From the NCBI RefSeq assembly GCF_014230055.1, contig NZ_JACHVA010000082.1, positions 124,001-188,000 of the forward strand: a stretch of DNA of 64,000 nucleotides, given 5' to 3'. Position numbers and translations under genes: made by a program. Of the stretch, positions 1 through 15,422 are shown piece after piece. Source of the DNA: Puniceicoccus vermicola (GTDB taxonomy: Bacteria; Verrucomicrobiota; Verrucomicrobiia; Opitutales; Puniceicoccaceae). The notes beneath the pieces were generated by a model that was not told where the DNA came from, made no database searches, and saw only the letters and a program-made list of their open reading frames with translations. Numbering within the stretch: the stretch's first letter is position 1; each line of letters starts with the position of its first letter.

Positions 1-46
1 ATTTTTCCATTGGATAGCGGAGGCGAGGGTTGCTAGGATTCTTTCC

Positions 47-703
47 ATGAAAAAAGTAGCAGTCCTTCTCTCTGGCAGTGGGGTTTATGACGGTAGTGAA
101 ATCTACGAGGCGACATTTACTCTGCTGGCGTTGGAAGAGGCCGGGGTGGACGTGACCTGTTGCGCTCCGGATATACCGCAGATGCACGTCATCAATCATG
201 TCACGGGCGATGTTGCGGAAGGCGAGTCGCGCTCTGTGCTTGTCGAGGCGGCTCGGCTGGCTCGCGGAGAGGTGACAGATTTGGCCAAATTGAGTGAGGC
301 GGAGTTTGACGCCCTGATTCTTCCTGGAGGATTTGGGGCCGCCAAGAATCTTTGCGATTTTGCAGTGAAGGGCCCCGACTGTCAGGTCGAGCCGCAGGTT
401 GCGGGGGTCGTTGAAGCGTTCCACGCCGCTGGTAAACCGATCGGGCTCATGTGTATTGCACCCGCGATCGGGGCGGCTCTTTTCGGAGGCAAGGGCATTC
501 GGCTCACGATCGGAAACGACGCCGATACCGCCAGCGGGCTTCAAGCGTTGGGTGCCGAGCATGTCGATTGCCCGGTGGACGAGATTGTCGTGGATGAGAA
601 CAACAAGGTAGTCACGACTCCCGCCTATATGCTCGGGCCGAAGATGGCCGATGTGAAAGCGGGCATTGATAAGCTCGTGGCCAAAGTTTTGGAAATGGCC
701 TGA
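47..703 (+). CDS. elbB: ElbB/ES1-family DJ-1/PfpI-like protein
   Basis: This 218-residue protein belongs to the class I glutamine-amidotransferase-like ES1/ElbB group of the DJ-1/PfpI superfamily. The N-terminus ([20 protein letters not shown]) matches the family opening, followed by [13 protein letters not shown] and then [11 protein letters not shown], where the cysteine sits at the nucleophile-elbow position. ElbB was first linked to isoprenoid synthesis in E. coli; glyoxalase-like activity has been reported for relatives, so the physiological substrate is uncertain. Length is typical. The gene lies 5 bp upstream of trmD and is probably co-transcribed with it. The family assignment is firm; the function is not. 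Confidence 0.88.
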
Positions 704-708
704 CGGCG

Positions 709-1374
709 ATGCGCTTCGATGTTTTGACCCTTTTCCCGGCCATGCTGGAAGGTTTTTTGGCCGAGAGTATGGTCGGGAAATCCATCCAGCGAGGTATCGT
801 GGAGGCCGCTGTCCACAATCTGCGTGATTGGACCACGGACAAGCACCAGATAACCGATGACCGCCCCTTCGGGGGAGGTGCAGGAATGGTCATGAAGCCG
901 GAACCGATTTTCTCGGCCATTGAGGAGCTTCGGAGTGAGCAGAGCACCGTCATTTATCTCGCCCCGGATGGAGAACAACTCAGTCACTCTCTGGTCATGG
1001 AACTGGCGGCCAAGCCGCATTTGATCCTCCTGAGTGGCCACTATGAGGGGATCGACGAGCGGGTGCGGGAGAATCTCATCGATCGGGAGATCAGTATTGG
1101 CGACTACGTTCTCACCAATGGAACTCTGCCAGCCGCAGTTTTGATTGACGCAGTGGCCCGGCAACTCCCCGGAGTCCTGGGGGAGGCCCAATCGCTGGAG
1201 CAGGATAGCTTCTCGGACGGATTGTTGGGGCTTCCACAATACACCCGTCCCGCCGAATTTCGCGGGATGAAGATTCCGGAAGTTTTGCTTTCCGGCAATC
1301 ACGCCAAGATCGAGGCTTGGCGGCAAGAGCAGCGAAGAGCGCGGACGGCGAAGCGACGGCCGGATTTGTTGTAG
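709..1374 (+). CDS. trmD: tRNA (guanine-N1)-methyltransferase TrmD
   Basis: TrmD makes m1G37 in tRNAs reading CNN/CGG-type codons, using S-adenosylmethionine through a trefoil-knot SPOUT fold. Seen: N-terminal [22 protein letters not shown] at residues 110-119, the SAM-knot segment [10 protein letters not shown] at 129-138, and [16 protein letters not shown] around 166-181, which contains the catalytic aspartate (D170) and the conserved PxYTRP. At 221 residues it is near the short end for the family but complete. It is next to elbB rather than in the usual rpsP-rimM-trmD-rplS cluster, which is absent here. Confidence 0.96.
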
Positions 1375-1593
1375 AGATGGCTGTGGCCATTCCTCTCCCT
1401 GCAAAAAGAAAATAGGTTCCTAACGCGAATCCCATGTGGGGTGGTCGCTTCAGCGCCACCCTTCGCGATTAGAAACGGCTCTCTCCAAGGCGCAGGAGAG
1501 GCGGAGCGGAAGCGCGATAAGCGATTTCGATTAGCCCCCGGCGAGTGCCGGAAGACTCTGCCACATCGCAAGGAAGGGCGATCTTCCTTTCTT

Positions 1594-2613
1594 CTACGGA
1601 GCGATGGTATCGAGAAGGGCTTGGACGCAGTCTATCCGGGTCTTCGGGCTGAGGCCGTGGCCGCCATTGAAGATGAAGCCGGGATCGCCTTTGCGGTTTT
1701 CGAGAATATTGGCAGCGGCCGCCCGGACATATTCGGGATCTGTTTCGAGAAGAATCGGGTCGAGATTTCCCTGGATGGCGATGTTGGGTCCGATAGTGGC
1801 TCGGGCTTGGGAGAGGGAGGTAGCCCAGTCGATCGCGATGGCTTCGGTCCCGACCGTCACTTGATCCGTGAGGCGGTTGGCCGCGCCTCGTGAGAAAAGG
1901 ATCATCGGCTTGTCGCAGGCTTCCTTGATCTTACGGATGGGATCCAGACACCATTCTTCGTAAAACTCGCTGGGACAAAGTGCTGCCCAGGAATCGAATA
2001 GTTGAATTGCATCCGCCCCGGAGGCGCATTGCAGTCGGACGTAGTCGGTACAAGCGGTGGTAATGCCTTTCAAGAGGAGGCGGGCACTGTGCGGGTCGCG
2101 GTAGAGCATTTCGCGCAAGTTGCGGCCTTCGCCGGGAGATCCACCTTCGACGAGGTAGAGCGCGAGTGTCCAGGGCGCTCCGCAGAATCCGAGAAGGGTT
2201 TTCTCTTCGCCCAGCTCTTTTTTCAGCATTTGTAGAGCCTCCCCGACATATTCGAGACGTTCGGCGGCTCCTTCGGGAGTCAGTGAATCCACCTCGATTT
2301 CAGAACGGATCGTCCGCTCCAGTTCGATTCCGCCTTCATCGCGAAAACGATAATCAACCCCGAGGGCTTCGGGGATGACAAGAATGTCACTGAAGAGAAT
2401 GGCCGCGTCGAGCTGGGGGAAACGCTTGAGCGGTTGCAGAGTCACCTCTGTCGCCAATTCGGGTGTGCGGACCATCGTCCGAAAATCGCTCTCTTCTTTC
2501 AACGCACGGTATTCGGGAAGATAGCGTCCAGCCTGTCTCATGAGCCAGACGGGGGGGCGGTCGAGATTGCGACAGGCGAGTGCGTCGAGAAAACGTTTCC
2601 TTGAAGTGGTCAT
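1594..2613 (-). CDS. hemE: Uroporphyrinogen decarboxylase HemE
   Basis: HemE decarboxylates the four acetate side chains of uroporphyrinogen III to give coproporphyrinogen III in the cytoplasm. The 339-residue reading from the ATG at 2613 opens with MTTSRKRFLDALAC and carries RPPVWLMRQAGRYLPEY at residues 19-35, the family's substrate-binding signature; the body includes LFSDILVIPEALG, FCGAPWTLALYLVEG and FNGGHGLSP near the C-terminus. A longer upstream reading exists (to 2733) but adds 40 residues unlike the family. The chosen ATG overlaps the hemF stop as ATGA, so the genes are translationally coupled and supply consecutive pathway steps. Confidence 0.96.
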   Translation of the reverse strand: MTTSRKRFLDALACRNLDRPPVWLMRQAGRYLPEYRALKEESDFRTMVRTPELATEVTLQPLKRFPQLDAAILFSDILVIPEALGVDYRFRDEGGIELERTIRSEIEVDSLTPEGAAERLEYVGEALQMLKKELGEEKTLLGFCGAPWTLALYLVEGGSPGEGRNLREMLYRDPHSARLLLKGITTACTDYVRLQCASGADAIQLFDSWAALCPSEFYEEWCLDPIRKIKEACDKPMILFSRGAANRLTDQVTVGTEAIAIDWATSLSQARATIGPNIAIQGNLDPILLETDPEYVRAAAANILENRKGDPGFIFNGGHGLSPKTRIDCVQALLDTIAP

Positions 2614-3572
2614 GAAGATTGCTCGTTGTTTTCGAGAGGATGGGTCGGCGCGAGCCAGTCCCGTGGTCGTAGATATCGCTCGGTCAATTGTTCTTCTGGG
2701 GAACCGGGTTCGGGCGTCCAATTGTAGGACCAATTGGCTTCGGCGGGAAGCGACATGAGGATCGATTCCGTGCGTCCTCCTGAGGCGAGCCCGAACTTTG
2801 TGCCGCGGTCATGGAGTAGATTGAATTCTACGTAGCGGCCCCGCCGGAGGCGCTGAAATTGTTTCTCTCTTTCGCCGAACGGAGTGGATGCACGCCGATC
2901 CAGAATACGAAAGAAGGACTCGCGGAATCCGTTTCCGACCTCAAGCGAGAAGGCAAAGGTGCGCTCAAATCCCAATTCTGAAAAATCGTCGTAGAAAATA
3001 CCTCCGATCCCTCGGCACTCGTCGCGGTGGGGAAGATAGAAATACTCATCGCACTCCCGCTTGAAGGATCGGTAGAGGCCAGGCTTGGCTTGCTCACAGA
3101 TGTCATGGGCCGCCTGGTGCCATTCCACTGCATCCTCGTCAAAACCATAGCAGGGTGTCAGGTCGAAACCGCCGCCAAACCACCACTGGATCGATTGCTC
3201 TTCCAGAGCCGGGAGGACGAAGAACGCGCGGACGTTCATGTGAGCGGTCGGTGCGTAGGGGTTCTGCGGATGCAAGACTACGGAGACTCCCATCGCCTCG
3301 AACGGTCGCCCGGCAAATTCGGGTCGGCGAGCAGAGGCAGGAGCGGGTAGGGCGTCGCCGCTGACGCGGGAAAAGTTTACGCCTCCCTTTGAGAGGATTT
3401 TGCCGCCTTCTACGGCCCTTGAGATTCCACCTCCGCCGCCGGGGCGTTCCCAGGAATCCTCACGAAGGATATCCGATCCTTCCCGGTTCTCGATCTCCCG
3501 ACATAGGTCATCTTGGAGCTTTTGAAAAGCGGCTTGGACCTGGTCCGGATCGGGCTGTGCGCTTTGGATCAC
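2610..3572 (-). CDS. hemF: Oxygen-dependent coproporphyrinogen III oxidase HemF
   Basis: HemF oxidatively decarboxylates coproporphyrinogen III to protoporphyrinogen IX using O2, which indicates aerobic haem synthesis. The 320-residue protein shows HPQNPYAPTAHMNVRAFF at 101-118 and WWFGGGFDLTPCYGFDEDA at 130-148, the classic HemF blocks. It starts with GTG at 3572, and that codon overlaps the stop of the upstream binding-protein gene as GTGA; its own stop overlaps the hemE start. This makes hemF the middle member of a tightly coupled leftward operon. Length and motifs are normal. Confidence 0.96.
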   Translation of the reverse strand: MIQSAQPDPDQVQAAFQKLQDDLCREIENREGSDILREDSWERPGGGGGISRAVEGGKILSKGGVNFSRVSGDALPAPASARRPEFAGRPFEAMGVSVVLHPQNPYAPTAHMNVRAFFVLPALEEQSIQWWFGGGFDLTPCYGFDEDAVEWHQAAHDICEQAKPGLYRSFKRECDEYFYLPHRDECRGIGGIFYDDFSELGFERTFAFSLEVGNGFRESFFRILDRRASTPFGEREKQFQRLRRGRYVEFNLLHDRGTKFGLASGGRTESILMSLPAEANWSYNWTPEPGSPEEQLTERYLRPRDWLAPTHPLENNEQSS

Positions 3573-4441
3573 TCTGCGATCGGGAGATCTGCCGCGAGCT
3601 GGCGTCTGCGTGAGTTCAGAATCGGGAAAAACCCTTCGCTCTGGAGGATCTCTGCAACCGAATCGGAGAGCAGGAATTCGAGGTAGGGAGCGAGGAACCG
3701 GTATTGGCTTCGCGGGACACAGACGTAATAAGCGAGGGCCAACGGGTAATCCCCGTAGTTCACATTCTCGAGGGTCGGGCCGAACGAGACGCCGCCGTCT
3801 TCAGCTTCGATGCGGAGAGCTTTCAGCTCGGTGGAAAGGGGCAGGGTGTCGATGACCCCGATCGCTCCGTCATTATTGCTGACGAAGGATTCCAGTTGAA
3901 TGGAAGAGTCGTATTCTTGGATGCCGGAGCGGATAGGTTCCCTGTCGAGGAACCGGGCGCTGAACAAGTCGAGGACGGGGCTCGTTCCGGGGTTGGCGTA
4001 GGCAGCCTGAATGTTCCGGTTCTGCCAAGCGCCGGAAAGGCCGAGGTCCGACCACCGGGCAATCGCGTTTTCGGTCAGAGATCCATAAATCCCGCCAATC
4101 TGTTGCCGTGTCAGGGACTTCAGCGGATTCTTCCGATTGACGACAACGGCTCCAATTTGAAACGCGAAGGGCAGGACGGGGAAGTCTAGCTCCGTCGGAT
4201 CCTGATGGGGCATGGCGACCAGAATCAGGTCGGCCTCTCCTTCGTAGAAATCGCGAAATGCGAGAAGACTGCCACCCAGTTGGATTTCGAGCTGGTCGCC
4301 TTCTTCGCTCGCGAAAGCTTCGAGAGCTTCGACGAGAGCGGGCGGAATGTAGTCGGACCCTTCGATGCGGACGACCCGCGCTTGAAGTACGGAACTGAGT
4401 GCAAGAGTCAGGAGAAGAATTTGGGGGAGAATGCCTTTCAT
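3569..4441 (-). CDS. PstS-like periplasmic solute-binding protein
   Basis: A 290-residue exported protein of the phosphate-binding (PBP-like type 2) family. From the ATG at 4441 it begins MKGILPQILLLTLALSSVLQA, a signal peptide. The mature part has IEGSDYIPPALVEALEAF, GGSLLAFRDFYEGEADL and QIGAVVVNRKNPLKSLTRQQIGGIYGS, the layout of PstS-type proteins. Phosphate is the usual ligand, but no pst transport genes are nearby, so this may be a stand-alone sensor or scavenging protein. A start 14 codons upstream (4483) is possible but would overlap the regulator gene and displace the signal peptide. It sits between the NtrC-type regulator and hemF. Confidence 0.82.
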   Translation of the reverse strand: MKGILPQILLLTLALSSVLQARVVRIEGSDYIPPALVEALEAFASEEGDQLEIQLGGSLLAFRDFYEGEADLILVAMPHQDPTELDFPVLPFAFQIGAVVVNRKNPLKSLTRQQIGGIYGSLTENAIARWSDLGLSGAWQNRNIQAAYANPGTSPVLDLFSARFLDREPIRSGIQEYDSSIQLESFVSNNDGAIGVIDTLPLSTELKALRIEAEDGGVSFGPTLENVNYGDYPLALAYYVCVPRSQYRFLAPYLEFLLSDSVAEILQSEGFFPILNSRRRQLAADLPIAE

Positions 4442-4451
4442 GAGTGAGAGA

Positions 4452-5816
4452 TTAAGATTCGAGGAGTTCGGGCCAGCGTGCAAGTTTGCGGTGGAGAGTA
4501 CGGCGACTCATTCCGAGGAGGTCCGCAGCTTTCGTCTTGTTGTTGCCGGTTTGCAGAAGGGCGTTCCGCAGCAAGCGCTTTTCATTCTCCTCGACGGAGA
4601 GAGGGTTGGCCGCGAGTGTTTTGGAATTGCTCGTCGGAGTTTGTTGTTCGCCGAAGAATTTGCTGTCGAGATCGTACTCAGTGACCCGACTGCCCCGTTT
4701 GAGAATGACCGTATTTTCGCAAAAGTTGCGCAGTTCCCGGATGTTCCCCGGCCAGCTATATTTCTGGAGGACCGAGAGTGCTTCGGGAGAAAAGGTGACG
4801 GGCGGGACTCCGTTTTCGCGGCTGAAGTTAGCGACATAGTGCTCAAGCAGGAGCGATATGTCGCCTTCACGCTGGCGGAGTGGAGGGAGATCGACCGTGA
4901 CGACGTTGAGCCGATAGAGGAGGTCTTCGCGGAAATCGCCTTTGCGCGCCATCGCCTCGAGGTCGCGATTGGTGGCACATACGAGGCGAACATCGACTTG
5001 CACAGGTTTGACGCTACCGAGTCGCTCAAAGGAGCGGGTTTCCAGAAAGCGGAGGAGCTTGATCTGGGTTGATGGATCGATCTCGCCAATTTCATCGAGA
5101 AAGAGGGTTCCGGAATCGGCAGCCTCGAAGCGGCCAATCCTTCGCTCGGTCGCACCGGTGAAGGCCCCTTTCTCGTGGCCGAAGAGTTCGCTTTCCAGAA
5201 GGTTTGAGGCCAGAGCGGCGCAATGCACGGCGACAAAGGGCCGGCGGCTGCGTTCGCTGTTCTGGTGAATGGCCTGGGCGATCAGCTCTTTCCCGGTACC
5301 GGTTTCTCCCTCGATGAGGACAGTCGCCTTGGAGGGGGCTACCAAGCGAACGGTTTCGAGGACGTTTTGAAGATTCGGTGAATTTCCGAGAATCTCGTCG
5401 AACTGGAATTTTTTGTCGAGGCGCTGATGGAGGTTCTGGTTTTCCTCCTGGAGGCGTTCGGACTGGAGAGCCCGTTCGATCAGGAGTTCGAGTTTTTCAA
5501 GACTGACAGGCTTCGTTAGGAAATCGTAGGCACCCCGCTTCATGGCTTCGACGGCAGTTTCGACGTTGCCGTAGGCGGTCATCATGATGCAGACGGGACG
5601 GGGGGAGAGCTTGAGAGTTCGCTCGATCACCGACATCCCCGATTTGCCAGCCATGCGCAGGTCGGTGAGGACGACATCAAATCGATCACTCTCGATGTGG
5701 TTGAAGGCCTCTCTGGCATTGTTGGCCGTTGTGATCTCGTAGCGATCCTCCAGGGCAGCCTCCAAGCCCTCGAGCGTATGAGGCTCGTCATCAACAATTA
5801 ATATGGAAGCGGGCAT
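4452..5816 (-). CDS. NtrC-family sigma-54-dependent response regulator
   Basis: A complete 454-residue bacterial enhancer-binding protein. The receiver domain (1-115) has the acidic pair at D9-D10, the phospho-acceptor D52 in DVVLTDLRM and K101 in FLTKP. A short coiled linker (about 106-135) leads to an AAA+ domain with Walker A GETGTGKE at 169-176, the sigma-54 contact loop GAFTGA at 216-221 and Walker B GTLFLDEI at 235-242. The C-terminus has a Fis-type helix-turn-helix (KTKAADLLGMSRRTLHRKL). It should activate sigma-54 promoters after phosphorylation. No histidine kinase is adjacent; the target genes are unknown. It ends 10 bp before the PstS-like gene. Confidence 0.93.
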   Translation of the reverse strand: MPASILIVDDEPHTLEGLEAALEDRYEITTANNAREAFNHIESDRFDVVLTDLRMAGKSGMSVIERTLKLSPRPVCIMMTAYGNVETAVEAMKRGAYDFLTKPVSLEKLELLIERALQSERLQEENQNLHQRLDKKFQFDEILGNSPNLQNVLETVRLVAPSKATVLIEGETGTGKELIAQAIHQNSERSRRPFVAVHCAALASNLLESELFGHEKGAFTGATERRIGRFEAADSGTLFLDEIGEIDPSTQIKLLRFLETRSFERLGSVKPVQVDVRLVCATNRDLEAMARKGDFREDLLYRLNVVTVDLPPLRQREGDISLLLEHYVANFSRENGVPPVTFSPEALSVLQKYSWPGNIRELRNFCENTVILKRGSRVTEYDLDSKFFGEQQTPTSNSKTLAANPLSVEENEKRLLRNALLQTGNNKTKAADLLGMSRRTLHRKLARWPELLES

Positions 5817-5918
5817 TGTCGTCTGAGGATGGATGGTGGCGGCAGGAGGGCAAGAAATTCTTTGCCTCTCCGCAGCGGATTCAGCTGGCTATCTCCCGGA
5901 CTCGGCACGGGAGTCCGT

Positions 5919-7223
5919 TCAGTTGCTGAGTACTTTTTCGACAAATTCCTGAGGCACTTCGGCGATCGAGGCGATGACCGCCGTGTCCCCATCTACCAGA
6001 TCCGAGAGGGCCAGCAAGTAAGAGCTGCGGCAGGCGTCGAGAGTTTCGAAGAGGCTGATGTTTTCCGAACGGGCTTTCGGGGAAACTGCCGATTCGTCCT
6101 CATTCATGGCCTCGAGGACATCGCGCGCTGATAGCGGTCGACCGGAATAGTTTTGCTGAAGGCGGAAGAGGACCTTGCGGAGCTCGGTGAAGTTACCGGG
6201 CCAATCCCGCCCCCGAAGGAGATTGATGGCGTCAGCGTCCCAACTCAGAGAGTCGCCATCCTCGGTCTCGGCGGCGCGGGCAGCGGCTTCGATGTCGTCC
6301 GGGCAGTCGCTCAATAGAGGGACGTGAAGCTCAGAACCTCCCATCGAGAGGTAGAGTTCGTCGCTCAAAACACCTTCCTGGTAGAGGGTTTCCACGTCGG
6401 AGCCGATCATGAAAATGAAACGAAAGTGTCCCTCCCAGTGGTCGCTAAACGTCCCTTTGCGGGATCCTCGCGCCAATTGTTTTTGCTGGCCTGGATCGAG
6501 TCGCTCGGTCTCTGGGATGGAAATCACAAAGCTCTCGAGCTTCTTTTCTCCGGCTTCCCGAGCGATTTGTTCCAGCAATTCGAGAGAGAAATCGTTGGGT
6601 TCGATGATCCGGCTGTCCGCCGTCTCGGGGTTTAGCCAACTGAAGAAGTCTTCGGCGATGGCGCGGGTAGGGGTGCCGCGCGGGGTGACGATGCAAAGGT
6701 TTTGGCGCCGGTTCCGCATGCGGTAGATCGATTCGGCAAAGGCATGGCTCGCATCCGATTGGCAGGGGAGTGCCTTGAAGGGAAAACCGAGATCGTTGGC
6801 ATCTCCCGGTTTTTCAACCGTTTCACTACTAGCCTTTTTCGTCTTGGACTTCCCTTCGGCGATCAACTTTGCCGCATTTTTGAGGAGCGAAAAGACGCTG
6901 AGAGGCTTCTCGTAGAGGCCGACGATGCCTTCGGATTCCATTTTTTCACGGTCCTTGGATTCCAGGAATCCAGAAACCATGATGATCGGGAGCTCTGTTT
7001 TGATCGCCTTGATCTTCTTGGCCAGTTCGAATCCGTTGAGCCCTGGCATCCGCAAATCGGTTACAACGAGACTAAAGTCCATCGAGCGTACCAGTTCCTC
7101 GACCTTCGTGGGCTCGCCGGTCATTTCCACATCGTAGGAAGCCTGAGAAAAAACGTCGGTCAGCAGAGAGGCGAAATCGAGATCGTCGTCAACAATGAGA
7201 ATGCGGGGAGCTTCTTTTTCCAT
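5919..7223 (-). CDS. Response regulator with degenerate sigma-54 activator module
   Basis: A 434-residue protein laid out like its neighbour (4452-5816) but with a worn-out output part. The receiver domain is intact: D13-D15, acceptor D56 in LVVTDLRMPG and K106 in LYEKPLS. In the AAA+-like region the place of the Walker A loop reads IVTPRGTPTRAIAE, without the GxxGxGK pattern; no GAFTGA loop is present, while a relic of the conserved WPGNIRELRN motif survives as WPGNFTELRK. The C-terminal segment resembles a Fis domain in position but lacks a recognisable recognition helix. It is open throughout, so it may be a functional partner rather than a pseudogene. It lies 102 bp upstream of the intact regulator. 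Confidence 0.78.
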   Translation of the reverse strand: MEKEAPRILIVDDDLDFASLLTDVFSQASYDVEMTGEPTKVEELVRSMDFSLVVTDLRMPGLNGFELAKKIKAIKTELPIIMVSGFLESKDREKMESEGIVGLYEKPLSVFSLLKNAAKLIAEGKSKTKKASSETVEKPGDANDLGFPFKALPCQSDASHAFAESIYRMRNRRQNLCIVTPRGTPTRAIAEDFFSWLNPETADSRIIEPNDFSLELLEQIAREAGEKKLESFVISIPETERLDPGQQKQLARGSRKGTFSDHWEGHFRFIFMIGSDVETLYQEGVLSDELYLSMGGSELHVPLLSDCPDDIEAAARAAETEDGDSLSWDADAINLLRGRDWPGNFTELRKVLFRLQQNYSGRPLSARDVLEAMNEDESAVSPKARSENISLFETLDACRSSYLLALSDLVDGDTAVIASIAEVPQEFVEKVLSN

Positions 7224-7236
7224 GGAGGTCTAAGGA

Positions 7237-7755
7237 CTAGTGGTCGTTTTCGCTGTCGGCCGAATCGGTTTGCGAGATGCGGTCAATGGCTTCGGTTACG
7301 CACTGGATCGAAGCCCCGTACCAGATGATGGGCTTGTCCGCGGCCTTTTCCCAATATTCGACGACGGGGCGACTCGGGTAGTAGGCGGTGGCCACGAGAT
7401 AATAGTCACCCACTAGATCAAAGGGGATCGTCCAAGTGGCCCAGCAGACATCCGGGTCGTTCATGGCATTGCCGAGGGGGCGCAGCTTATAATTGCTCAG
7501 AGCAATCAGCCCGATCTTGGATTCCTTGACCACGAAGTTGATGTAGTCCTTCTCATCGAGCTTCTTGAGATCGTAGATGAGAATGTTGAGGACGGAAATC
7601 TGTCGCGGATTGCCTCCGTCGATTGCGTCTAGAAGCCGTTCGTTGGCCTCGTCGATGTCCTCCTCGTTGACTAGGCCGTATTCGTTCAGGGTATTGGCGA
7701 GAAAACGGTTGCTGCGCAGAACGAGGGCTTTGTGTTCTTTGCTAATCGCGGGCAT
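7237..7755 (-). CDS. Conserved hypothetical protein (172 aa)
   Basis: Soluble 172-residue protein, not recognised. The N-terminal third (MPAISKEHKALVLRSNRF, then LVNEEDIDEANERLLDAI) looks helical and the C-terminal part (VGDYYLVATAYYPSRPVVEYWEK) looks beta-rich. There is no signal peptide or membrane segment. It ends 13 bp upstream of the degenerate response regulator and is probably the first gene of that leftward array, so a link to the signalling pair is possible but unproven. Confidence 0.7.
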   Translation of the reverse strand: MPAISKEHKALVLRSNRFLANTLNEYGLVNEEDIDEANERLLDAIDGGNPRQISVLNILIYDLKKLDEKDYINFVVKESKIGLIALSNYKLRPLGNAMNDPDVCWATWTIPFDLVGDYYLVATAYYPSRPVVEYWEKAADKPIIWYGASIQCVTEAIDRISQTDSADSENDH

Positions 7756-7903
7756 GTGATGTCAAGCTAGTCGGGGTTTCGCAGGGTTCAATCCAAAAGC
7801 GAGGGTGAGCCGTGTCCGCAATGCCAGTTCTTCCGCCGTGGTGAGGCGCGGTTCATGGGCAAAGTGAGCGATCCGGTCGGGAGAGAAGGTGTCGACCGGA
7901 GGT

Positions 7904-8236
7904 TTATCCCTTCGTCCGATCAATGTGGCCCAGATCGCGCCCTGGAGCAAGGAGGTCGCGGACTCGCTTTTTAAGTTCTTTGATTTCGGGGAATCCACCT
8001 TCTTCGCCGCGGTCCCAGAGAACGGTTTCGCCGGAAACAACCCTAAATACCCCGGAAGAATCGCTGGGGCTGAGGGTGACTCCGGCCAAATCCTCCTCGA
8101 AGGTGCTGAGAAGTTCCTGCCCCATCCATGCAGAGCGGAGCAGCCACTTGCAGCCGGGGCAGTAGGTAATGACGATCAGGGGTTTGGTGGTTTCTGGCAC
8201 AGGGTTTGAAGAAATGGTCCTTTCCCCGGGGCGCAA
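7904..8236 (-). CDS. Rdx family (SelT/SelW/SelH-like) thioredoxin-fold protein
   Basis: A 110-residue protein of the Rdx selenoprotein-like family with a redox motif C26-P-G-C29 (ITYCPGCKWLLRSAWMGQELL), i.e. a cysteine-for-selenocysteine form. The following GVFRV, LWDRGEEGGFPEIKELKKRVRDLL and a GRDLGHIDR tail match bacterial members. The fold is thioredoxin-like and the role is probably thiol redox, but the partner is not known. The exact start is uncertain, since several residues before IVITYC are dispensable for the family. Confidence 0.82.
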   Translation of the reverse strand: MRPGERTISSNPVPETTKPLIVITYCPGCKWLLRSAWMGQELLSTFEEDLAGVTLSPSDSSGVFRVVSGETVLWDRGEEGGFPEIKELKKRVRDLLAPGRDLGHIDRTKG

Positions 8237-8369
8237 CGCGAAAGTCGCTTACTTTGGGGTGGAGAAGTGACTCACTCCTTGGGCCTCCTGTGGGGAAGAA
8301 TGACTGAATTCGCAAATCCGATGATTTTTGGATTCGCCCGATCGGGATTGGGTCTTTACGAAGAGGATC

Positions 8370-8798
8370 ATGAAAATCTCTCTCGGAACGGATCACGCGG
8401 GCTACACTCACAAGGAAGCAGTCAAGAAGCACTTGGAAGAGGCGGGCTACGAGGTTCTTGATTTTGGAACCAATTCAGTCGAAGCTGTCGACTACCCGGA
8501 TTTCATTCGCCCGGCTGCGGAAGCAGTTCCCGCCGGCAAAGCCGATCGGGCCATCGTTTTTGGTGGAAGCGGAAACGGGGAAGCGATCACTGCGAATAAA
8601 GTGAAAGGAATTCGCTGTGCGCTTTGCTGGAATATTGAGACCGGTGAGCTGGCCAAGCAGCACAACGACGCCAATTGCCTATCCTTTGGTGCTCGCCAAA
8701 CTCCGGTGGATGAAGTTTTGAAGATTATCGACGCTTGGCTCGCGGCAAAATTCGAAGGCGGACGCCACGAGCGGCGCATCCAAAAGATTGAGAACTGA
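8370..8798 (+). CDS. rpiB: Ribose-5-phosphate isomerase B, Glu-type
   Basis: RpiB interconverts ribose 5-phosphate and ribulose 5-phosphate in the pentose phosphate pathway. The 142-residue protein from the ATG at 8370 (preceded by AGAGGA) begins MKISLGTDHAGYTHKEAVKKH, with GTDHAG typical. The active-site loop reads FGGSGNGEAITANKVKGIR instead of the cysteine-containing CGTGIGMSI form. This is the Mycobacterium-type variant, where a glutamate replaces the catalytic cysteine. Similar LacA/RpiB proteins act on other phosphosugars, so allose or galactose phosphates remain possible substrates. Confidence 0.9.
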   Translation: MKISLGTDHAGYTHKEAVKKHLEEAGYEVLDFGTNSVEAVDYPDFIRPAAEAVPAGKADRAIVFGGSGNGEAITANKVKGIRCALCWNIETGELAKQHNDANCLSFGARQTPVDEVLKIIDAWLAAKFEGGRHERRIQKIEN

Positions 8799-8867
8799 CC
8801 CCCGGCGGGCCGGACGATTTTCGTTCCGGTTTTGACACCGAGGGAACATCAGGCTTTGTAACCCATT

Positions 8868-9470
8868 ATGGCTGAAATTATGCAGGCAAAAGAAAACCAA
8901 GAGGATAAGAAGAAAGAAGGCGGTTCGCTGTCAGAGATGGTGAAGAAACGCTTCCTCGAGGATCGTAAGATTTTTCTCTGGGGAGAAGTTTCCGATGATT
9001 CGATGAAAGAAGTCACCGAAAAGCTCCTCTACCTCGAATCCGAAGATCCCGGCAAGGAGATCAAGTTTTACATCAACACTCCCGGGGGCTCGATCACCGC
9101 TGGAATGGCGGCGTACGATACCATGAAGCTGATTTCCAGCCCCGTGACGGTCATTGTCACTGGGATGGCGGCGAGCATGGGCTCGATCCTTCTCTCGGGG
9201 GCTGACAAGGGGCGTAGATTCATTTACCCACACGGCCGGGTGCTGATTCACCAGCCGCTGATCAGCGGGACGTTCATGGCACCAGCCGTGGACATCAACA
9301 TCCAGGCCCAAGAGATGGAACGCATTCGCGATGAGCTGAACAAGATTCTTGCCGAAGCGTCAGGGAAGGATCTTTCCGTCATCGAGAATGACACGGATCG
9401 GGATTTCTACCTCACCGCCGAGGAATCGATTCAATACGGTCTCGTCGATGAGATCGTCACCAAGATCTGA
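8868..9470 (+). CDS. clpP: ATP-dependent Clp protease proteolytic subunit ClpP
   Basis: The 200-residue protein has the ClpP catalytic triad in place: Ser103 in GMAASMGS, His128 in RVLIHQPL and the aspartate of NDTDRD (174-179), with the INTPGG and SITAGMAAYDTM blocks before them. It forms the tetradecameric chamber that degrades substrates fed by ClpX or ClpA-type ATPases. No ATPase gene is adjacent. The charged leader (MAEIMQAKENQEDKKKEGG) is longer than usual and may be a propeptide; an alternative start is M5. The gene is followed after 12 bp by dapF. Confidence 0.95.
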   Translation: MAEIMQAKENQEDKKKEGGSLSEMVKKRFLEDRKIFLWGEVSDDSMKEVTEKLLYLESEDPGKEIKFYINTPGGSITAGMAAYDTMKLISSPVTVIVTGMAASMGSILLSGADKGRRFIYPHGRVLIHQPLISGTFMAPAVDINIQAQEMERIRDELNKILAEASGKDLSVIENDTDRDFYLTAEESIQYGLVDEIVTKI

Positions 9471-9482
9471 TTTCTTCCTCCA

Positions 9483-10316
9483 GTGAGCCTGGTTTTTCAA
9501 AAATACCACGCCCTCGGAAACGACTACTTCGTCCTCGATCCTTCGAGCGGCGAGCTGCCGGATTCGAAGGGGATCGAACTCGTCTGCCATCGTAACTTCG
9601 GGCTGGGTTCCGATGGGATCCTCTACGGGCCACTACCTTCCGAGGTGGCGGATTTCCGGCTGAGGATTCTGAATCCCGATGGCAGCGAGGCGGAAAAGAG
9701 CGGGAATGGCCTACGGATCTTTTGCCGCTACCTGCACGACCGGGGAGAGGTGACAGATCGCCCCTTCACGGTTGAGACTGAAGGTGGGGTCGTCTCCGCT
9801 TGCATCCACGACGCCTCCGAGAGCATTGAGGTCGAGATGGGGAAGGTTTCCTTTTCCAGTCAGGTGATCCCCGTGAACGGAGAGGAGCGAGAGGTCATTC
9901 AGGAAACGTTGGAGGCGAACGGCCAGAAAGTTGAGTTCTCGGCGGCAACCATCGGAAACCCTCATTGCGTGGTTCTACGCGACAAGGTTTCTGAGCAGGA
10001 AGCCCGTGACTTGGGACCGCATCTGGAGAATCATCCTCTTTTCCCGAATCGTACGAATGTGCAATTCCTGGAGGTGATCGACCGGGGCAACATCCGTTTG
10101 GAAATCTGGGAGCGCGGAGCGGGCTACACCTTGGCCTCGGGCAGCAGTTCCAGTGCGGCCGCTTCGGTCGCTCGCAAGCTGGGGCTTGTCGATTCGGATG
10201 TGACCGTGCACATGCCCGGAGGATTGCTGACTCTCTCGATCAGTGACGATTTCGCGGTTCGGATGACAGGTCCCGTTCGACTCATCGGCGAGCTGACTTG
10301 GACTCCCGAAGACTAA
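9483..10316 (+). CDS. dapF: Diaminopimelate epimerase-like protein lacking both catalytic cysteines
   Basis: The 277-residue protein has the DapF fold signatures: FQKYHALGNDYFVLD at the N-terminus, NFGLGSDG, RILNPDGSEAE, TIGNPHCV and RTNVQFLEV. DapF epimerises LL- to meso-diaminopimelate with two cysteines that act as acid and base. Here both are serine: the first motif reads EKSGNGLR (Ser73, codon AGC) and the second TLASGSSSSA (Ser219, codon TCG), where family members normally have CGNG and ACGTGA. The start is GTG at 9483. It could be a DapF working through serines, a divergent racemase, or an inactive paralogue; a normal dapF elsewhere would favour the last two. Confidence 0.85.
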   Translation: MSLVFQKYHALGNDYFVLDPSSGELPDSKGIELVCHRNFGLGSDGILYGPLPSEVADFRLRILNPDGSEAEKSGNGLRIFCRYLHDRGEVTDRPFTVETEGGVVSACIHDASESIEVEMGKVSFSSQVIPVNGEEREVIQETLEANGQKVEFSAATIGNPHCVVLRDKVSEQEARDLGPHLENHPLFPNRTNVQFLEVIDRGNIRLEIWERGAGYTLASGSSSSAAASVARKLGLVDSDVTVHMPGGLLTLSISDDFAVRMTGPVRLIGELTWTPED

Positions 10317-10326
10317 AAAGGACTTT

Positions 10327-10351
10327 CCGTAGATCTACGGCCTAGCCGTAG
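10327..10351. repeat. Short overlapping palindromes after dapF
   Basis: CCGTAGATCTACGG (10327-10340) is a perfect 14-bp palindrome, and its right arm can instead pair with a third CCGTAG copy at 10346-10351. It lies between the convergent dapF and potassium-channel genes. There is no T-tract, so it is at best a weak bidirectional terminator. Confidence 0.4.
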
Positions 10352-10394
10352 GGATTCTCCGCCACGGCAAATGCTCCTCGGCTCTCGGGCTTCT

Positions 10395-10835
10395 TCAGTC
10401 CTTGGGCTTTTGATGGGCACCGCCCTTGGCAGAGGATTTTGTGCGGCCTTTAGATCGGGCGGTAGCCTTCTTGGTGTGTGTTTGACTTTCTTGCTTCTTG
10501 TTGAGGACAAATTCCTCCCTGACCGCGATCTGCGCTTGCGCGAGCTGGGTGACTAAGGCGACGAAAACGCCGATCCCGACGAGGGCGTAAAAGATCGTGA
10601 AGATTTTGGAGACATCCCGGGTGGGATGCAGATCTCCGTACCCAATCGTGGTCAGAGTCATTACACAAAAGTAGGACGCATCGACCACGGACCAACCCTC
10701 TGTTCGGCAATAGAACGCGGTTCCGCAGGCAACAATGGTCAGGGCTAGGATCAGAGTGATGCGAAAATGGGTCTGCTGCCAAGCCATCCGCAGGCCGCGA
10801 AAGAACTGTAGCACGGTAAGGAGAAATGAAGGCAT
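10395..10835 (-). CDS. Two-transmembrane potassium channel
   Basis: A 146-residue inner-membrane protein with two helices (about 25-42 and 78-98) flanking a pore loop with the K+ selectivity filter TLTTIGYGD at 60-68. This is the minimal KcsA-like (ion_trans_2) architecture. The C-terminal tail (about 115-146) is lysine-rich and hydrophilic with no RCK/TrkA-N domain, so no ligand gating is evident. It starts 3 bp after the glycosylase stop and is likely co-transcribed with it. Confidence 0.88.
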   Translation of the reverse strand: MPSFLLTVLQFFRGLRMAWQQTHFRITLILALTIVACGTAFYCRTEGWSVVDASYFCVMTLTTIGYGDLHPTRDVSKIFTIFYALVGIGVFVALVTQLAQAQIAVREEFVLNKKQESQTHTKKATARSKGRTKSSAKGGAHQKPKD

Positions 10836-10838
10836 GGC

Positions 10839-11765
10839 TTATTTTTTTCGTTTATCGGAGGAGGTGTCGACTTCAGATCCAGTCGCGGGGTTGCGTGCGT
10901 GCGCGAAGAGGAATTGCTGGGCGATCCCCGCTGCGGAGCCATAGTGGGCGCGGGCGAAGAGCTGGATTTGGTCATCTGTGAACGAATCAAGCCCGTAGGA
11001 TTCTCGCATGTGCCGACTGATCCAGGTGTCGATCGGAAAGGCCTCGAGCCGTCCGTATCCAAACAGCAGAACGCAATCGGCGATTTTGCGTCCGACACCG
11101 GGTAAGGCGATCAGCTTGCGGCGGGCTTCGTCAGTGGGAAGACTTTCGAGACTGTCCAGATAGCCGTCCTGCTGACTCAGATAATCTGCGGATTGGTGGA
11201 TCGATCGGGCGCGGTAGCCGATCCCACACATCCGGAGGTCCGCTTCCGGAACGGAGGCAAGCGTCGCCCAGGAGGGGGGAGCAAAAAGGCCGTGATCAAG
11301 GGCTTCACCCCATCGCCGGGAGATTTCGAGGAGGCCAGCGCGGATCTGCTCGATTCGTTTGAGGGGACTGAGAAGAAAAGAGAGGAGGGCGACATCCGGG
11401 CTTTGCCGGAGGATGCGCAGACCGGGAAATTGCCCGACGGCTTGGTTGAGGACTGGATCGGAGCGCCAGGGCAGGGCATCCACTTCTCGTGCGAAGTCGA
11501 TCGAAGTGGCAAAGTACGATTCGATGGTTGCTTTTACATCCTCCTTGGACGAAGTGGATCCGGAGGCAGACCAAGTCAAATGGTGATCGGACAGAAGTTC
11601 CAATGTGCAGGCGTGTTTCCCGACAATGCCCTTCCAGGTTGTGGCCGTTATCGGCTCCCAGAGAAAGCTCTGTCCTCCTGCGAGGATCTCTCGGAGCACT
11701 CTTTGGCCCCCTTCGACCGGGAAGGGTAGCGTTCCGCTGGGAGAACCCGCGTCAGCTGGGTTCAT
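10839..11765 (-). CDS. OGG1-type 8-oxoguanine DNA glycosylase
   Basis: A 308-residue HhH-GPD glycosylase resembling eukaryotic-type OGG1. The N-terminal beta domain (about 10-100) precedes the helical domain; the hairpin-helix-hairpin reads LPGVGRKIADCVLLFG at 221-236 with K227 at the Schiff-base lysine position, and the catalytic aspartate is D246 in EAFPIDTW. It would excise 8-oxoguanine opposite C and nick the strand. The ATG at 11765 is chosen because the in-frame upstream extension (to 11879) overlaps the lipoprotein gene. The gene overlaps that lipoprotein's end by 14 bp. Confidence 0.86.
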   Translation of the reverse strand: MNPADAGSPSGTLPFPVEGGQRVLREILAGGQSFLWEPITATTWKGIVGKHACTLELLSDHHLTWSASGSTSSKEDVKATIESYFATSIDFAREVDALPWRSDPVLNQAVGQFPGLRILRQSPDVALLSFLLSPLKRIEQIRAGLLEISRRWGEALDHGLFAPPSWATLASVPEADLRMCGIGYRARSIHQSADYLSQQDGYLDSLESLPTDEARRKLIALPGVGRKIADCVLLFGYGRLEAFPIDTWISRHMRESYGLDSFTDDQIQLFARAHYGSAAGIAQQFLFAHARNPATGSEVDTSSDKRKK

Positions 11766-12270
11766 TCGCTGGAGTCTGGGTGCCTGTTGCGGCCGGTGGA
11801 GAATCGACCGACCAGAGATAACTTTCCCTCTCCTCCAAGACTTTACCTTCAGGGTCGAGAATTTGAAGGTTCCAGGCAACTGGTCCGAATTGGATTCCGG
11901 GCCAATCCAATCCCGTCAAACCGATCCAGAGAGTGGCTCCAGAGCTGGCGGAGCGCTCTGGTTCCAACGTGAATTCCTTCATCTCGGGATCTCCGGGAAT
12001 CTGCACCGAGAGGTGAATTTCACCAATGTCCCTCTGAGACATTTCCTTCGTGATGGGCAGGATCCAAAAATATCCGCCCCGCACCTCGGGATCCGTACGG
12101 ACATAGATGCGATCCGTCTCGGGTTCTTGACCCGTGAAATATTCGCTGATGCGAAAAAAGTCTTCCTCTGGAATATAGCGGTGCTCAGTGGCTGGGCCCG
12201 AAGTCTGAGTCGTCGGGGTGCTGCAAGCCGTTAAAAGCGCTAATAGAAACAATTTACCTAAAATTCGCAT
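11752..12270 (-). CDS. Putative lipoprotein, unknown function
   Basis: A 172-residue protein beginning MRILGKLFLLALLTAC, a signal peptide with a lipobox (LLTAC) at residues 12-16. The mature part is Thr/Ser-rich at first, then contains an aromatic beta-rich domain (GGYFWILPITKE, EIHLSVQIPGDPEMKEFTLEP, GPVAWNLQILDPEGKVL) that looks like an immunoglobulin-like fold. It is not recognised. It is the first gene of the set with the glycosylase and K+ channel. Confidence 0.75.
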   Translation of the reverse strand: MRILGKLFLLALLTACSTPTTQTSGPATEHRYIPEEDFFRISEYFTGQEPETDRIYVRTDPEVRGGYFWILPITKEMSQRDIGEIHLSVQIPGDPEMKEFTLEPERSASSGATLWIGLTGLDWPGIQFGPVAWNLQILDPEGKVLEERESYLWSVDSPPAATGTQTPANEPS

Positions 12271-12423
12271 CTCAATTTAGAGCAGGAAAAAGTTGACCTT
12301 GGTTGCTAAAAAACAATCCTCCTAACTTTCCCGATTATTGATCTTGTAACCGATTTAGTAAGCTTTCGCGAATTCATGTTTCTCCGCAAGTGTTTTGATC
12401 TTGGATCCTTTTCCCGCGAGGGA

Positions 12424-13638
12424 ATGAGGGTATCGACTTCCTTTTTTGCCCTCGGCTTGATTGCCCTGTTCGCCTTGGCCATGCCGGCGGAGGTTTTTGG
12501 TGCGGAAGGAGACGCGAAGGTGGCCTCGGCACCGTCAGCAAGTGATTCTTCGGAATCTGCTGAGGCATCTGCAAAGGAGGGCACTGCCACCAATGAGGAT
12601 GCGGGGACGGTTGATTCGACCGAGAGCGCAGTCCCGGGCGAGGCCGGTACTGCCGATGAGAATGCTGCGCCGGAGTCGGGAGAGGCCACCGAGGAAGTCG
12701 TTGAAGTGGTCGAGGAGAGCCCCTTCGTTTCTCCGCAGGAGGCCCTTGTCGCGGTCCGTGGCGATGCGAAGGTGGGCCTCGGCGTGCTCGCAACTTATGA
12801 GGAGCGGACGGTTGTCGTGACTTCCCTCTCTGCATTGAATGGAAGCCGCCGAATTCTGGTCAATACGGCTGGAGGTCAGGAGGTGCCGATCGTTGGTGTG
12901 ATCGGAGTGAAGGGCAAGGATATGGCCTTTTTAGCAGTGGATTCAGCTGCTGCGGATCTTCCGGTTGCCGAGTTGAATCTTGAAGGGAAAATCGAGAAAG
13001 ATGATTCGGTAAGAATTTTAAATCCGCGTCGCGAGATTAAGTTGAAGGTCAGAGGGGAGGAATCCGGCCGGATCGAGATCGGGGATGTGGAAGGGCCCGT
13101 TTTTGCAGGTTCTCCAGTGGTCGTTGGCAAACAGGTCATCGGAGTCTTTAGCCCAGCTCGACTTGTCGGGACTCAGGCTTCCTCGGGGGCTGATAGTACC
13201 GTGATTTGGAACGCGGGGATCGTTCCCTTCAGCTCTTCCATGCAGTGGGAACCGATCGATCTGGCGACGATGGCTCTGGAAAGTGAGACCCTCGATGATT
13301 GCCTCTCGGTCATTTCTCAGGTCGGTTCGTTTCTCAAGGTGAGTGGTTTTAAAGGAGAAGTTTCGATGCAGCGCCTTTTGGTCGCCCGGGACCGTTTGAA
13401 GGATGACCTCGCTCGTTCAAGCCAAGCTGTGGAGAAGGATAATGCCAGAAAGAAGTTCGCCTTCTCGGTTCGCAGTTCAACGGGTTCCGTCCAATCCGAT
13501 CTCCAGGGAGCTCTTAACAATTACTATTCTTATTTCGATCCTGAGGTCACGCTTCTGGTCGATCTCTACCGCCCGGTGCATGAGAAGATTCAGGATTTGA
13601 ACAATAACCTGCGGAAGGCGGACTCGTTCGCTCGCTAA
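12424..13638 (+). CDS. Exported trypsin-fold protein, probably catalytically inactive
   Basis: A 404-residue secreted protein from the ATG at 12424 (GAGGGA just upstream). A signal peptide (MRVSTSFFALGLIALFALAM, cleaved near PAEVFGA) is followed by an Ala/Glu/Ser-rich low-complexity linker of about 75 residues. Next comes a domain reading ALVAVRGDAKVGLGVLATYE, VVVTSLSALNGSRRILV and KDMAFLAVD, which follows the HtrA/trypsin pattern, but the catalytic-histidine segment reads TSLSALNG instead of TNxHV. The serine loop (GPVFAGSPVVVGKQVIGV) is also non-canonical. This suggests a pseudo-protease. The C-terminus is helical. Its stop overlaps the lnt start (TAATG). Confidence 0.72.
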   Translation: MRVSTSFFALGLIALFALAMPAEVFGAEGDAKVASAPSASDSSESAEASAKEGTATNEDAGTVDSTESAVPGEAGTADENAAPESGEATEEVVEVVEESPFVSPQEALVAVRGDAKVGLGVLATYEERTVVVTSLSALNGSRRILVNTAGGQEVPIVGVIGVKGKDMAFLAVDSAAADLPVAELNLEGKIEKDDSVRILNPRREIKLKVRGEESGRIEIGDVEGPVFAGSPVVVGKQVIGVFSPARLVGTQASSGADSTVIWNAGIVPFSSSMQWEPIDLATMALESETLDDCLSVISQVGSFLKVSGFKGEVSMQRLLVARDRLKDDLARSSQAVEKDNARKKFAFSVRSSTGSVQSDLQGALNNYYSYFDPEVTLLVDLYRPVHEKIQDLNNNLRKADSFAR

Positions 13639-15284
13639 TGAGTCGAGACGCGGCCGATGCTGGTTCGTCCCGGAAAGAACCAGCAATACCTGAAAGCGAA
13701 AAGACAGGGGGATTGAGACCATGGGGCTGGCTTCTCGTCTTGGTCCTTCTCTCTGCGTTTCTTCGGTTTACACTTTTCCCGCCAATTTCCTTTTCCGAAG
13801 GCGCCTATTTTTTTCTCGCGCCTCTCCTACTCTGGAACTGGCAGGGGCACAGCCGGAAAGCCATCTTCGGATGGGGCTGGCTTGCTGGTTTTCTCTTTTG
13901 GGTCGCGTCGATCGTCTGGCTCCGCCACGTAACCCTGATTGGGATGATCGGGCTTTCGGGGGTGCTCGCCCTCTTCATGGGAGTCTGGTCGCTGGTCTTT
14001 GGGCGTTGGCTGCAACCGCGCTGGGCCGGGAAAGACACTTTTACCGGCTCATGGTTTGTCCCTTTGGTCGGGGCCGCCGTCTGGGTCCTTCTCGAGTGGA
14101 CCCGCTCTTGGATTTTCTGGGGATTTCCGTGGAACCCGGTTTCTCTCTCGCAGTGGAATCGACCGGCTGTCCTGTCAATCGTCTCAGCGACTGGCGGGTG
14201 GGGGCTGACTTTTTTGCTAATCTGGATCAACCTGGCGCTCGTTCAGTGGTTGCGAACTCCCTTTACTGAGTGGAAATCCAAAGGGTTCCTTCCAGTTGCA
14301 CGCAAGGTGCCAATCGTTCTGGTCGTTCCGATCGGAATTCTCATGGTCAGTGCCGGATCCTATTTTTGGCAATCGATGAAGCGGGAGCCATCGGAACCAG
14401 TCCGGGTTGGATTTGTTCAACCGTATTCCACCATGAAATGGGATCAGTCGGCTGTTTCCCGCAACATTGAGAACCTGTGGCAGGAAACCCGCAGCCTCCA
14501 GGGAGAGGACCCGGAAATCATTCTCTGGCCGGAAGCCTCGACACCCATCCCCGTCATTGGTGAGTATTCCATTCGTACGGGAGTGGAGGCACTGGCGTCG
14601 GGGATGAAGGCTCCGATCCTCATGGGAAATATGGCTTCCTATCGTGAGAAAGGGATTTACGAGAATGGAGTCTTTCTGGTTGAGCCGGATGGCGGGCTCG
14701 TCGCTGACTACTACGTGAAACGGGAGTTGGTTCCCTTCGGCGAGTTTGTTCCGTTTCGAGAGATTTTCCCCTTTCTAGAGAAGGTGGTGCCAATTGGGCT
14801 CGATTGTCGACCCGGAGAGCGGCCCGTCCTCTTCCCATTTCCCTCGGCCGACGGACAGGATAAGGTTGGGCCCTTGGTCTGCTATGAGGATGTCTTTCCC
14901 TCTCTGGCTCGCGACACGACCCAGGCCGGAGCGGACTGGCTCTTCGTCGCTACGAACAACGTGTGGTATGGAGAAGAGGCAGGTGCCTACCAACACGCCG
15001 CCCATGCGGTTGTCAGAGCCGTCGAGAACCGACGTCCTGTCTTGCGAAGTGGGAATGCCGGGTGGTCGGGGTGGATTGACGAATGGGGGCATATCCGGAA
15101 GAGGGTCTCCGATGAAAATGGGTCCATTTACTTTCGGGGAGCGGAAACGGTCTCGGTGAACCGGGACTTACGCTTTGATGGGGTGATGACACCCTACGCC
15201 CGATTTGGGGACTGGATCGTCGCTCTCGCCGCCGGAATCTTGGGCGCGGGTCTTCTCTCGAGCTGGAAAAGAAAACGTTCATAG
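13638..15284 (+). CDS. lnt: Apolipoprotein N-acyltransferase Lnt
   Basis: The 548-residue inner-membrane enzyme adds the third acyl chain to lipoproteins. The N-terminal half has several hydrophobic helices (LLVLVLLSAFLRFTLFP onward). The C-terminal nitrilase domain carries the triad: glutamate in LWPEASTP (about residue 298), lysine in YVKRELVPFGEFVPF (about 361) and cysteine in LVCYEDVFPS (about 415). A final helix (AAGILGAGLLSSW) anchors the C-terminus. It is translationally coupled to the upstream pseudo-protease gene. The enzyme fits with the lipobox proteins seen here. Confidence 0.94.
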   Translation: MSRDAADAGSSRKEPAIPESEKTGGLRPWGWLLVLVLLSAFLRFTLFPPISFSEGAYFFLAPLLLWNWQGHSRKAIFGWGWLAGFLFWVASIVWLRHVTLIGMIGLSGVLALFMGVWSLVFGRWLQPRWAGKDTFTGSWFVPLVGAAVWVLLEWTRSWIFWGFPWNPVSLSQWNRPAVLSIVSATGGWGLTFLLIWINLALVQWLRTPFTEWKSKGFLPVARKVPIVLVVPIGILMVSAGSYFWQSMKREPSEPVRVGFVQPYSTMKWDQSAVSRNIENLWQETRSLQGEDPEIILWPEASTPIPVIGEYSIRTGVEALASGMKAPILMGNMASYREKGIYENGVFLVEPDGGLVADYYVKRELVPFGEFVPFREIFPFLEKVVPIGLDCRPGERPVLFPFPSADGQDKVGPLVCYEDVFPSLARDTTQAGADWLFVATNNVWYGEEAGAYQHAAHAVVRAVENRRPVLRSGNAGWSGWIDEWGHIRKRVSDENGSIYFRGAETVSVNRDLRFDGVMTPYARFGDWIVALAAGILGAGLLSSWKRKRS

Positions 15285-15422
15285 AGGCTTCTCTGGGCTC
15301 CTGCGGGTCGTTTTTTCTCTGGTTTTTTAGGTGGATCGCCGCTTTTTCACAAGCAGCTCCACAGATGGAAGCCTTGCTTCTTGAAACTTGAAGCGCATTT
15401 GGTTTAAATTTGTGAAAAATGT

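Follow-up and report, generated by a model that had tools for sequence, protein, structure and literature searches.

NtrC-type response regulators of Opitutia, predicted to be ATPase-dead and linked to the genes of a probable second type IV filament machine

Protein A is encoded in a 64,000-nucleotide stretch of a Puniceicoccus vermicola contig (hereafter the window) and resembles an NtrC-type regulator from which the ATPase motifs have gone. We propose, with a probability of about two in three, that A and two related protein classes, B and C, are NtrC descendants which have a dead ATPase but can be phosphorylated, and that they serve a second type IV filament machine of Opitutia as response regulators. 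The genes for M, A, B and the ATPase PilB2 form a conserved four-gene module that travels with PilC2, a second platform gene of the PilC/GspF family. As judged from sequence and gene content, the three regulator classes probably act through protein contact, A and B as a pair.

Protein A: domains, lost motifs and conservation

The domain architecture of protein A was established with Pfam, which recognised Response_reg (2.8e-20, residues 8-115), Sigma54_activ_2 (5.9e-7, residues 155-304) and, barely below its cut-off, AAA_lid_14 (4.4e-6, residues 316-381). By this succession of receiver, AAA+ core and lid, A is, by descent, an enhancer-binding protein (bEBP) of the NtrC family. The features of the locus are collected in Table 1; open reading frames were called by a longest-ORF script, and their start positions may be off.

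Table 1. Features of the protein A locus (window positions)
Feature	Position	Strand	Description
Intact NtrC-type regulator	4452..5816	-	Complete motifs; judged outside the module
Protein A	5919..7223	-	434-aa NtrC-type response regulator, predicted ATPase-dead, ATG start; orthologues in 28/103 genomes
A C-terminal helices, residues 391-434	5922..6053	-	Fis-type helix-turn-helix remnant without basic recognition helix
A AAA+ lid, residues 316-381	6081..6278	-	Relic WPGNFTELRK; 26.9 bits against a cut-off of 27
A degenerate sigma-54-type AAA+ core, residues 155-304	6312..6761	-	Without Walker A GK, GAFTGA, Walker B DE and R-finger
A receiver domain, residues 8-115	6879..7202	-	Phosphorylation residues D12, D13, D56, S84 and K106 present
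Protein M	7237..7755	-	172-aa stand-alone protein of predicted GSPII/MshEN fold, 13 bp upstream of A

In an alignment with the canonical regulators of the window's genome, the Walker A site of A is CIVTPRGTPTRAIA, against LIEGETGTGKELIA in the intact protein, a 14-column deletion takes the place of the GAFTGA segment, and the Walker B DE, the sensor I N and the R-finger are missing, while WPGNFTELR is kept in the lid. The first-pass annotation, which had described an intact receiver and the loss of the Walker A and GAFTGA loops next to this relic, is therefore borne out on both counts. The same losses extend to the relatives: the Walker A and Walker B residues were found in 0/25 full-length A proteins and 0/16 B proteins, and the GAFTGA loop is deleted in all 25 and all 16 (the truncated A proteins of L043 and L057 were excluded from this alignment). 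A and B thus lack the Walker and GAFTGA features of a sigma-54-dependent bEBP and are unlikely to function as one; by its motifs, A is predicted to be unable to bind or hydrolyse ATP or to contact sigma-54. The receiver is nearly invariant in its key residues, D56 being present in 26 of 27 A orthologues (E in the other) and S84 and K106 in all 27, and the corresponding D, S and K are kept in 16/16 B proteins, so that by residues both receivers appear phosphorylation-competent. At the other end of the protein, HTH_8 gave no Pfam match in the 27 A and 16 B proteins searched, and the last 45 residues carry a mean net charge of -0.9 in A, -4.4 in B and -2.3 in C (canonical bEBPs, +4.4). Rfam gave no matches in window 1-16000, and neither the promoter and terminator scans nor the sigma-54 -24/-12 pattern yielded matches above chance.

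Structure prediction points to a persisting AAA+ fold, as the first-pass annotation had proposed to check. The AlphaFold2 model of A, built with 27 sequences, has a mean pLDDT of 87.2 and three C-terminal helices, and its pTM of 0.57 leaves the placement of the domains unsure. Its best Foldseek matches were NtrX (E 1e-20) and NtrC1 (E 1e-18), and the AAA+ domain of NtrC1 alone matched the model with a TM of 0.71 of its length. VIA-align 2 ranked NtrC4, NtrC1 and NtrX at the top (Z 22 to 23), in a tie with receiver-only chains and with a high rmsd, as expected if domains move. NtrC1, NtrX and ZraR, the best sequence and fold matches, share with A the order of receiver, AAA+ core, lid and C-terminal helices, but A lacks their basic recognition helix, their sigma-54 loop and all their ATPase motifs, and its gene neighbours are a filament motor set.

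A search of the order, 103 genomes in all, gave orthologues of A in 28, the window's genome included, and the 28 best matches contain no internal stops. Identity is 64% to the congener G002 and 27-38% to the remaining orthologues. Against G002, YN00 gave dN/dS of about 0.13 for A, 0.05 for the receiver and 0.11 for the AAA+ and lid part, values of which only the direction is safe since dS is near or past saturation; the identities between the window's genome (G000) and G002 are 85% for the receiver and 62% for the AAA+ and lid part, which also retains family-specific conserved positions. The stop-free orthologues in 28/103 genomes and the dN/dS of about 0.13 argue against a chance open frame, and the earlier suggestion that the full-length frame is under selection agrees with this purifying pattern, dS saturation notwithstanding. 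At 398 bits or more, A was found in 11 of 286 genomes of the class, all within the window's order, and the hosts of the named records are Opitutia, including Cerasicoccus and Coraliomargarita. In a phylogenetic tree, A and B are separate from a group of canonical regulators and C, and every class is monophyletic; the long branches leave the number of origins unsettled.

Some A loci show further peculiarities. A receiver-only gene of 122-123 aa lies directly upstream of A in L046, L048, L049, L054 and L056, and the A proteins of one family (L046, L048, L054, L056) have an altered, extended C-terminal tail. Directly downstream of A, L032, L033, L036, L037 and L039 encode a conserved protein of 218-232 aa, for which Pfam gave no match in the two members checked.

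A gene set with a motor ATPase and a platform protein

Protein M is probably co-transcribed with A. The M of the window has no Pfam match of its own, and MshEN was matched in 3 of 17 M members. Its AlphaFold model (pLDDT 89.7) resembles the N-terminal GSPII/MshEN domains of PilF, MshE, XpsE and PilB (Foldseek E 6.6e-6 to about 1e-4), with fold Z scores of 13.9 for PilF, 13.0 for XpsE and 12.7 for MshE, so that M is predicted to have the fold of the PilB N-domain. This assignment as an MshEN relative was made on the fold and not on profile comparison, which was weak between M and PilB2 (hhalign probability 1.3%). Unlike the domain in MshE, PilF and XpsE, M is a separate protein without ATPase. 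By eye, the c-di-GMP motif reported in PMC5013675 is not intact in M. Across the phylum, M was found in 28 of 288 genomes, all within the window's order.

B is a second regulator built like A, the two aligning over 431 columns in hhalign with a probability of 100. PilB2 combines a T2SSE ATPase domain with an MshEN domain (Pfam); it is closest to PilB yet under both curated equivalog cut-offs, with 563.8 bits against the PilB model TIGR02538 (cut-off 675.65) and 539.3 bits against the GspE model TIGR02533 (cut-off 630.25). An extra PilB-type ATPase beside the main one is also found in Acinetobacter, where it is named TfpB (PMC8213720 and PMC11656802), but PilB2 scores 434 bits against TfpB, below its cut-off of 850, and comes with M and a regulator set of its own.

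The named records contribute 27 loci (L115-L141, of which L117, L118, L121, L122 and L126 overlap the sampled genomes; L114 and the weak L142, from Deltaproteobacteria, lie outside the 27), and 21 of them have all four genes in the order M-A-B-PilB2. A-B-PilB2 without adjacent M occurs in three loci, all from Cerasicoccus, and the remaining three are interrupted by contig ends. The window's genome carries the set in two parts, M-A at 5919-7755 and B-PilB2 on contig C127; likewise, A and M lie on separate contigs from B and PilB2 in the window's genus. Beside PilB2 of this genus, L060:1071-5583 and L107:9646-14035 contain what looks by eye like an ExbB-ExbD-TonB-type operon.

Two candidates were rejected while the neighbourhood was searched for partners. 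The downstream gene of about 600 aa that was considered as a histidine kinase encodes the T2SSE ATPase, and no kinase was found in the M-A-B-PilB2 module; Obg GTPase, encoded upstream of A in several genomes, was set aside because its gene is universal. Elsewhere in the window, 15423-17660 encodes a 745-aa protein with, by eye, a substrate-binding-like domain, a PAS domain and a histidine kinase, possibly an orphan kinase.

The four genes also co-occur across the 103 genomes, where A is present in 28, M in 38, B in 21 and PilB2 in 40. All 38 M genomes carry PilB2, all 21 B genomes carry A, and 25 of the 28 A genomes carry PilB2. The exceptions (G024, G042, G070) have A and B without M or PilB2 above threshold, and possess PilC2 and another PilB-like ATPase. 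Of the PilB2 genomes, 15 lack A, and because all 15 carry C, A or C is present in 40/40. Presence was scored with cut-offs of E up to 2.1e-33 for A, E up to 1e-70 for B, E up to 1e-30 for M (excluding a weak match in G014), 880 bits for PilB2 and 339 bits for C; these were fixed at visible score gaps after the scores were known, and the co-occurrence p-values ignore the shared ancestry of the genomes.

Class C is a milder decayed relative of NtrC, found in 19 of the 103 genomes of the sampled order in which it was searched (loci L086, L088, L089, L090, L091, L093, L095, L061 and L145-L155). The Walker A GK is kept in five of seven C proteins, and GAFTGA and the Walker B pair are lost in all seven. 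Of 20 C loci, 17 have C immediately behind PilC2; in G084 and for one of the two G043 copies PilC2 is not adjacent, and the G098 locus is interrupted by a contig end. Four C-linked PilC2 proteins compared in full have 37-43% identity to the pilus PilC and 22-25% to the GspF of the window's genome. The second PilC of A genomes belongs to the same PilC2 family in 20/20 loci fetched, including that of the window's genome (C53); in the genome counts, PilC2 membership was assigned by score range only and is uncertain in seven genomes. In L176:8191-8712, L177:6809-7330 and L178:7055-7609, the gene behind PilC2 encodes 173-184 aa, a C-like receiver joined to a C-like tail from which the AAA+ domain is wholly absent, and in L166:8177-8569 a receiver alone stands in this place.

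Control by contact and competing explanations

Descent, motif loss, the kept receiver and the tight gene linkage to PilB2, M and PilC2 lead us to infer that phosphorylation would set the pairing of A with B and their contact with PilB2, M or PilC2. The receivers of A and B would be phosphorylated by an unlinked histidine kinase, which would shift their pairing or oligomer state; the dead AAA+ and lid body would be a scaffold that docks on PilB2, M or PilC2, and docking would switch or place the assembly motor, whose product would be a filament or a secreted one. A and B may oppose one another. The full scenario, in which all three classes left transcription and control the second filament motor by contact, A and B form an opposing phospho-switched pair, and C is a separate line of decay in which the AAA+ domain was finally lost in some genomes, stands in our view at even odds.

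Precedents exist for response regulators acting on the extension motor PilB, as proposed for A and B. In Pseudomonas, the response regulators PilG and PilH form an antagonistic pair that acts on PilB, and in cyanobacteria PATAN regulators bind PilB (PMC10519157). A and B are tied to PilB2 by gene linkage. Unlike them, the regulators of Pseudomonas and cyanobacteria are CheY-like or PATAN proteins belonging to chemotaxis-like arrays; in the A loci we recognised no array of this kind. To our knowledge, the PilG/PilH and PATAN regulators are not NtrC-derived.

The main rival, which we consider unlikely, is that A remains a transcription regulator, of sigma-70 type, and controls expression of the PilB2 module. 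Indeed, bEBPs without GAFTGA are known to work at sigma-70 promoters, and NtrC of Caulobacter and Rhodobacter as well as VspR/VpsR have, like A, lost the sigma-54 loop and kept the receiver fold; the 8-column gap of class C at GAFTGA can be compared with the 8-residue deletion of Caulobacter NtrC (PMC10274813). A retains its receiver and three C-terminal helices, and VpsR and FleQ are also among its Foldseek matches. The GAFTGA-less proteins named above, however, regulate by binding DNA, and in Caulobacter NtrC the Walker residues are required, which are absent from A and B; in A the R-finger is gone as well. The missing HTH_8 matches, the non-basic C-terminus of A, the extended tails that replace its usual end in one family and the C-like forms from which the whole AAA+ domain is gone also speak against DNA-bound action, although the residual C-terminal helices may still bind DNA.

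Less probable still, A and B could act as sinks for phosphate or be inert remnants maintained by their place in the operon. Within A, conservation is highest in the receiver, and the receiver-only copies beside A in several genomes would suit a sink, but the purifying selection on the AAA+ and lid part, its family-specific conserved positions and the frames kept open in so many genomes are difficult to reconcile with inert sequence.

Finally, the first-pass annotation had suggested that A might pair with the intact NtrC next to it, or antagonise it, in a phosphorylation-dependent way. This neighbour is indeed complete by Pfam and alignment, the two genes are adjacent on the same strand in the window and in G002, and both proteins keep their receivers. 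Nevertheless, these two are the only A loci among 28 with NtrC nearby (the window, L031-L048 and L050-L058, counting the second A copy of G005, L053, and omitting L049 of G047, on a short contig), and NtrC is near A in 0/27 loci of the named records. An NtrC orthologue was present in 15/15 genomes searched, including the congener G001 and the family member G003, which lack A and whose content fits a joint loss of A, M, B, PilB2 and PilC2. G001 keeps the NtrC-PstS-HemF-HemE block but has no M and A with it; in the window the same block (NtrC, a PstS-like binding protein, HemF and HemE, the last two named by eye from sequence) occupies 1594-5816. Both the gene-pair comparison and the sister genomes therefore count against the pairing, which we regard as very improbable, and the partner proposed was probably the wrong one: a hetero-oligomer may exist, and the dead paralogue B is a better candidate partner than NtrC because all 21 B genomes also have A.

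Significance for Opitutia and the NtrC family

The titles and abstract openings returned by a full-text literature search, which covered few subscription journals, mentioned no type IV pilus gene sets containing ATPase-less NtrC-like proteins, and NtrC and Verrucomicrobia were absent from a word search of the main text of the PilB cofactor review PMC11656802. Our analysis points to M, PilB2 and PilC2 as parts of a second, conserved type IV filament machine of Opitutia, with Cerasicoccus and Coraliomargarita as named host genera suited to testing. It also calls for caution, as annotation as a sigma-54 regulator may not mean that a protein regulates transcription. Protein A appears to be more than a lone relic, namely a member of a conserved, seemingly ATPase-dead NtrC-type set tied to filament machine genes. 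If our reading is true, an enhancer-binding protein would have been emptied of its ATPase and reused as a controller at the protein level, and intermediate stages of this decay would survive in living lineages. This suggests that in some bacteria a transcription regulator may have been put to new use in steering the motor of a filament or of secretion.
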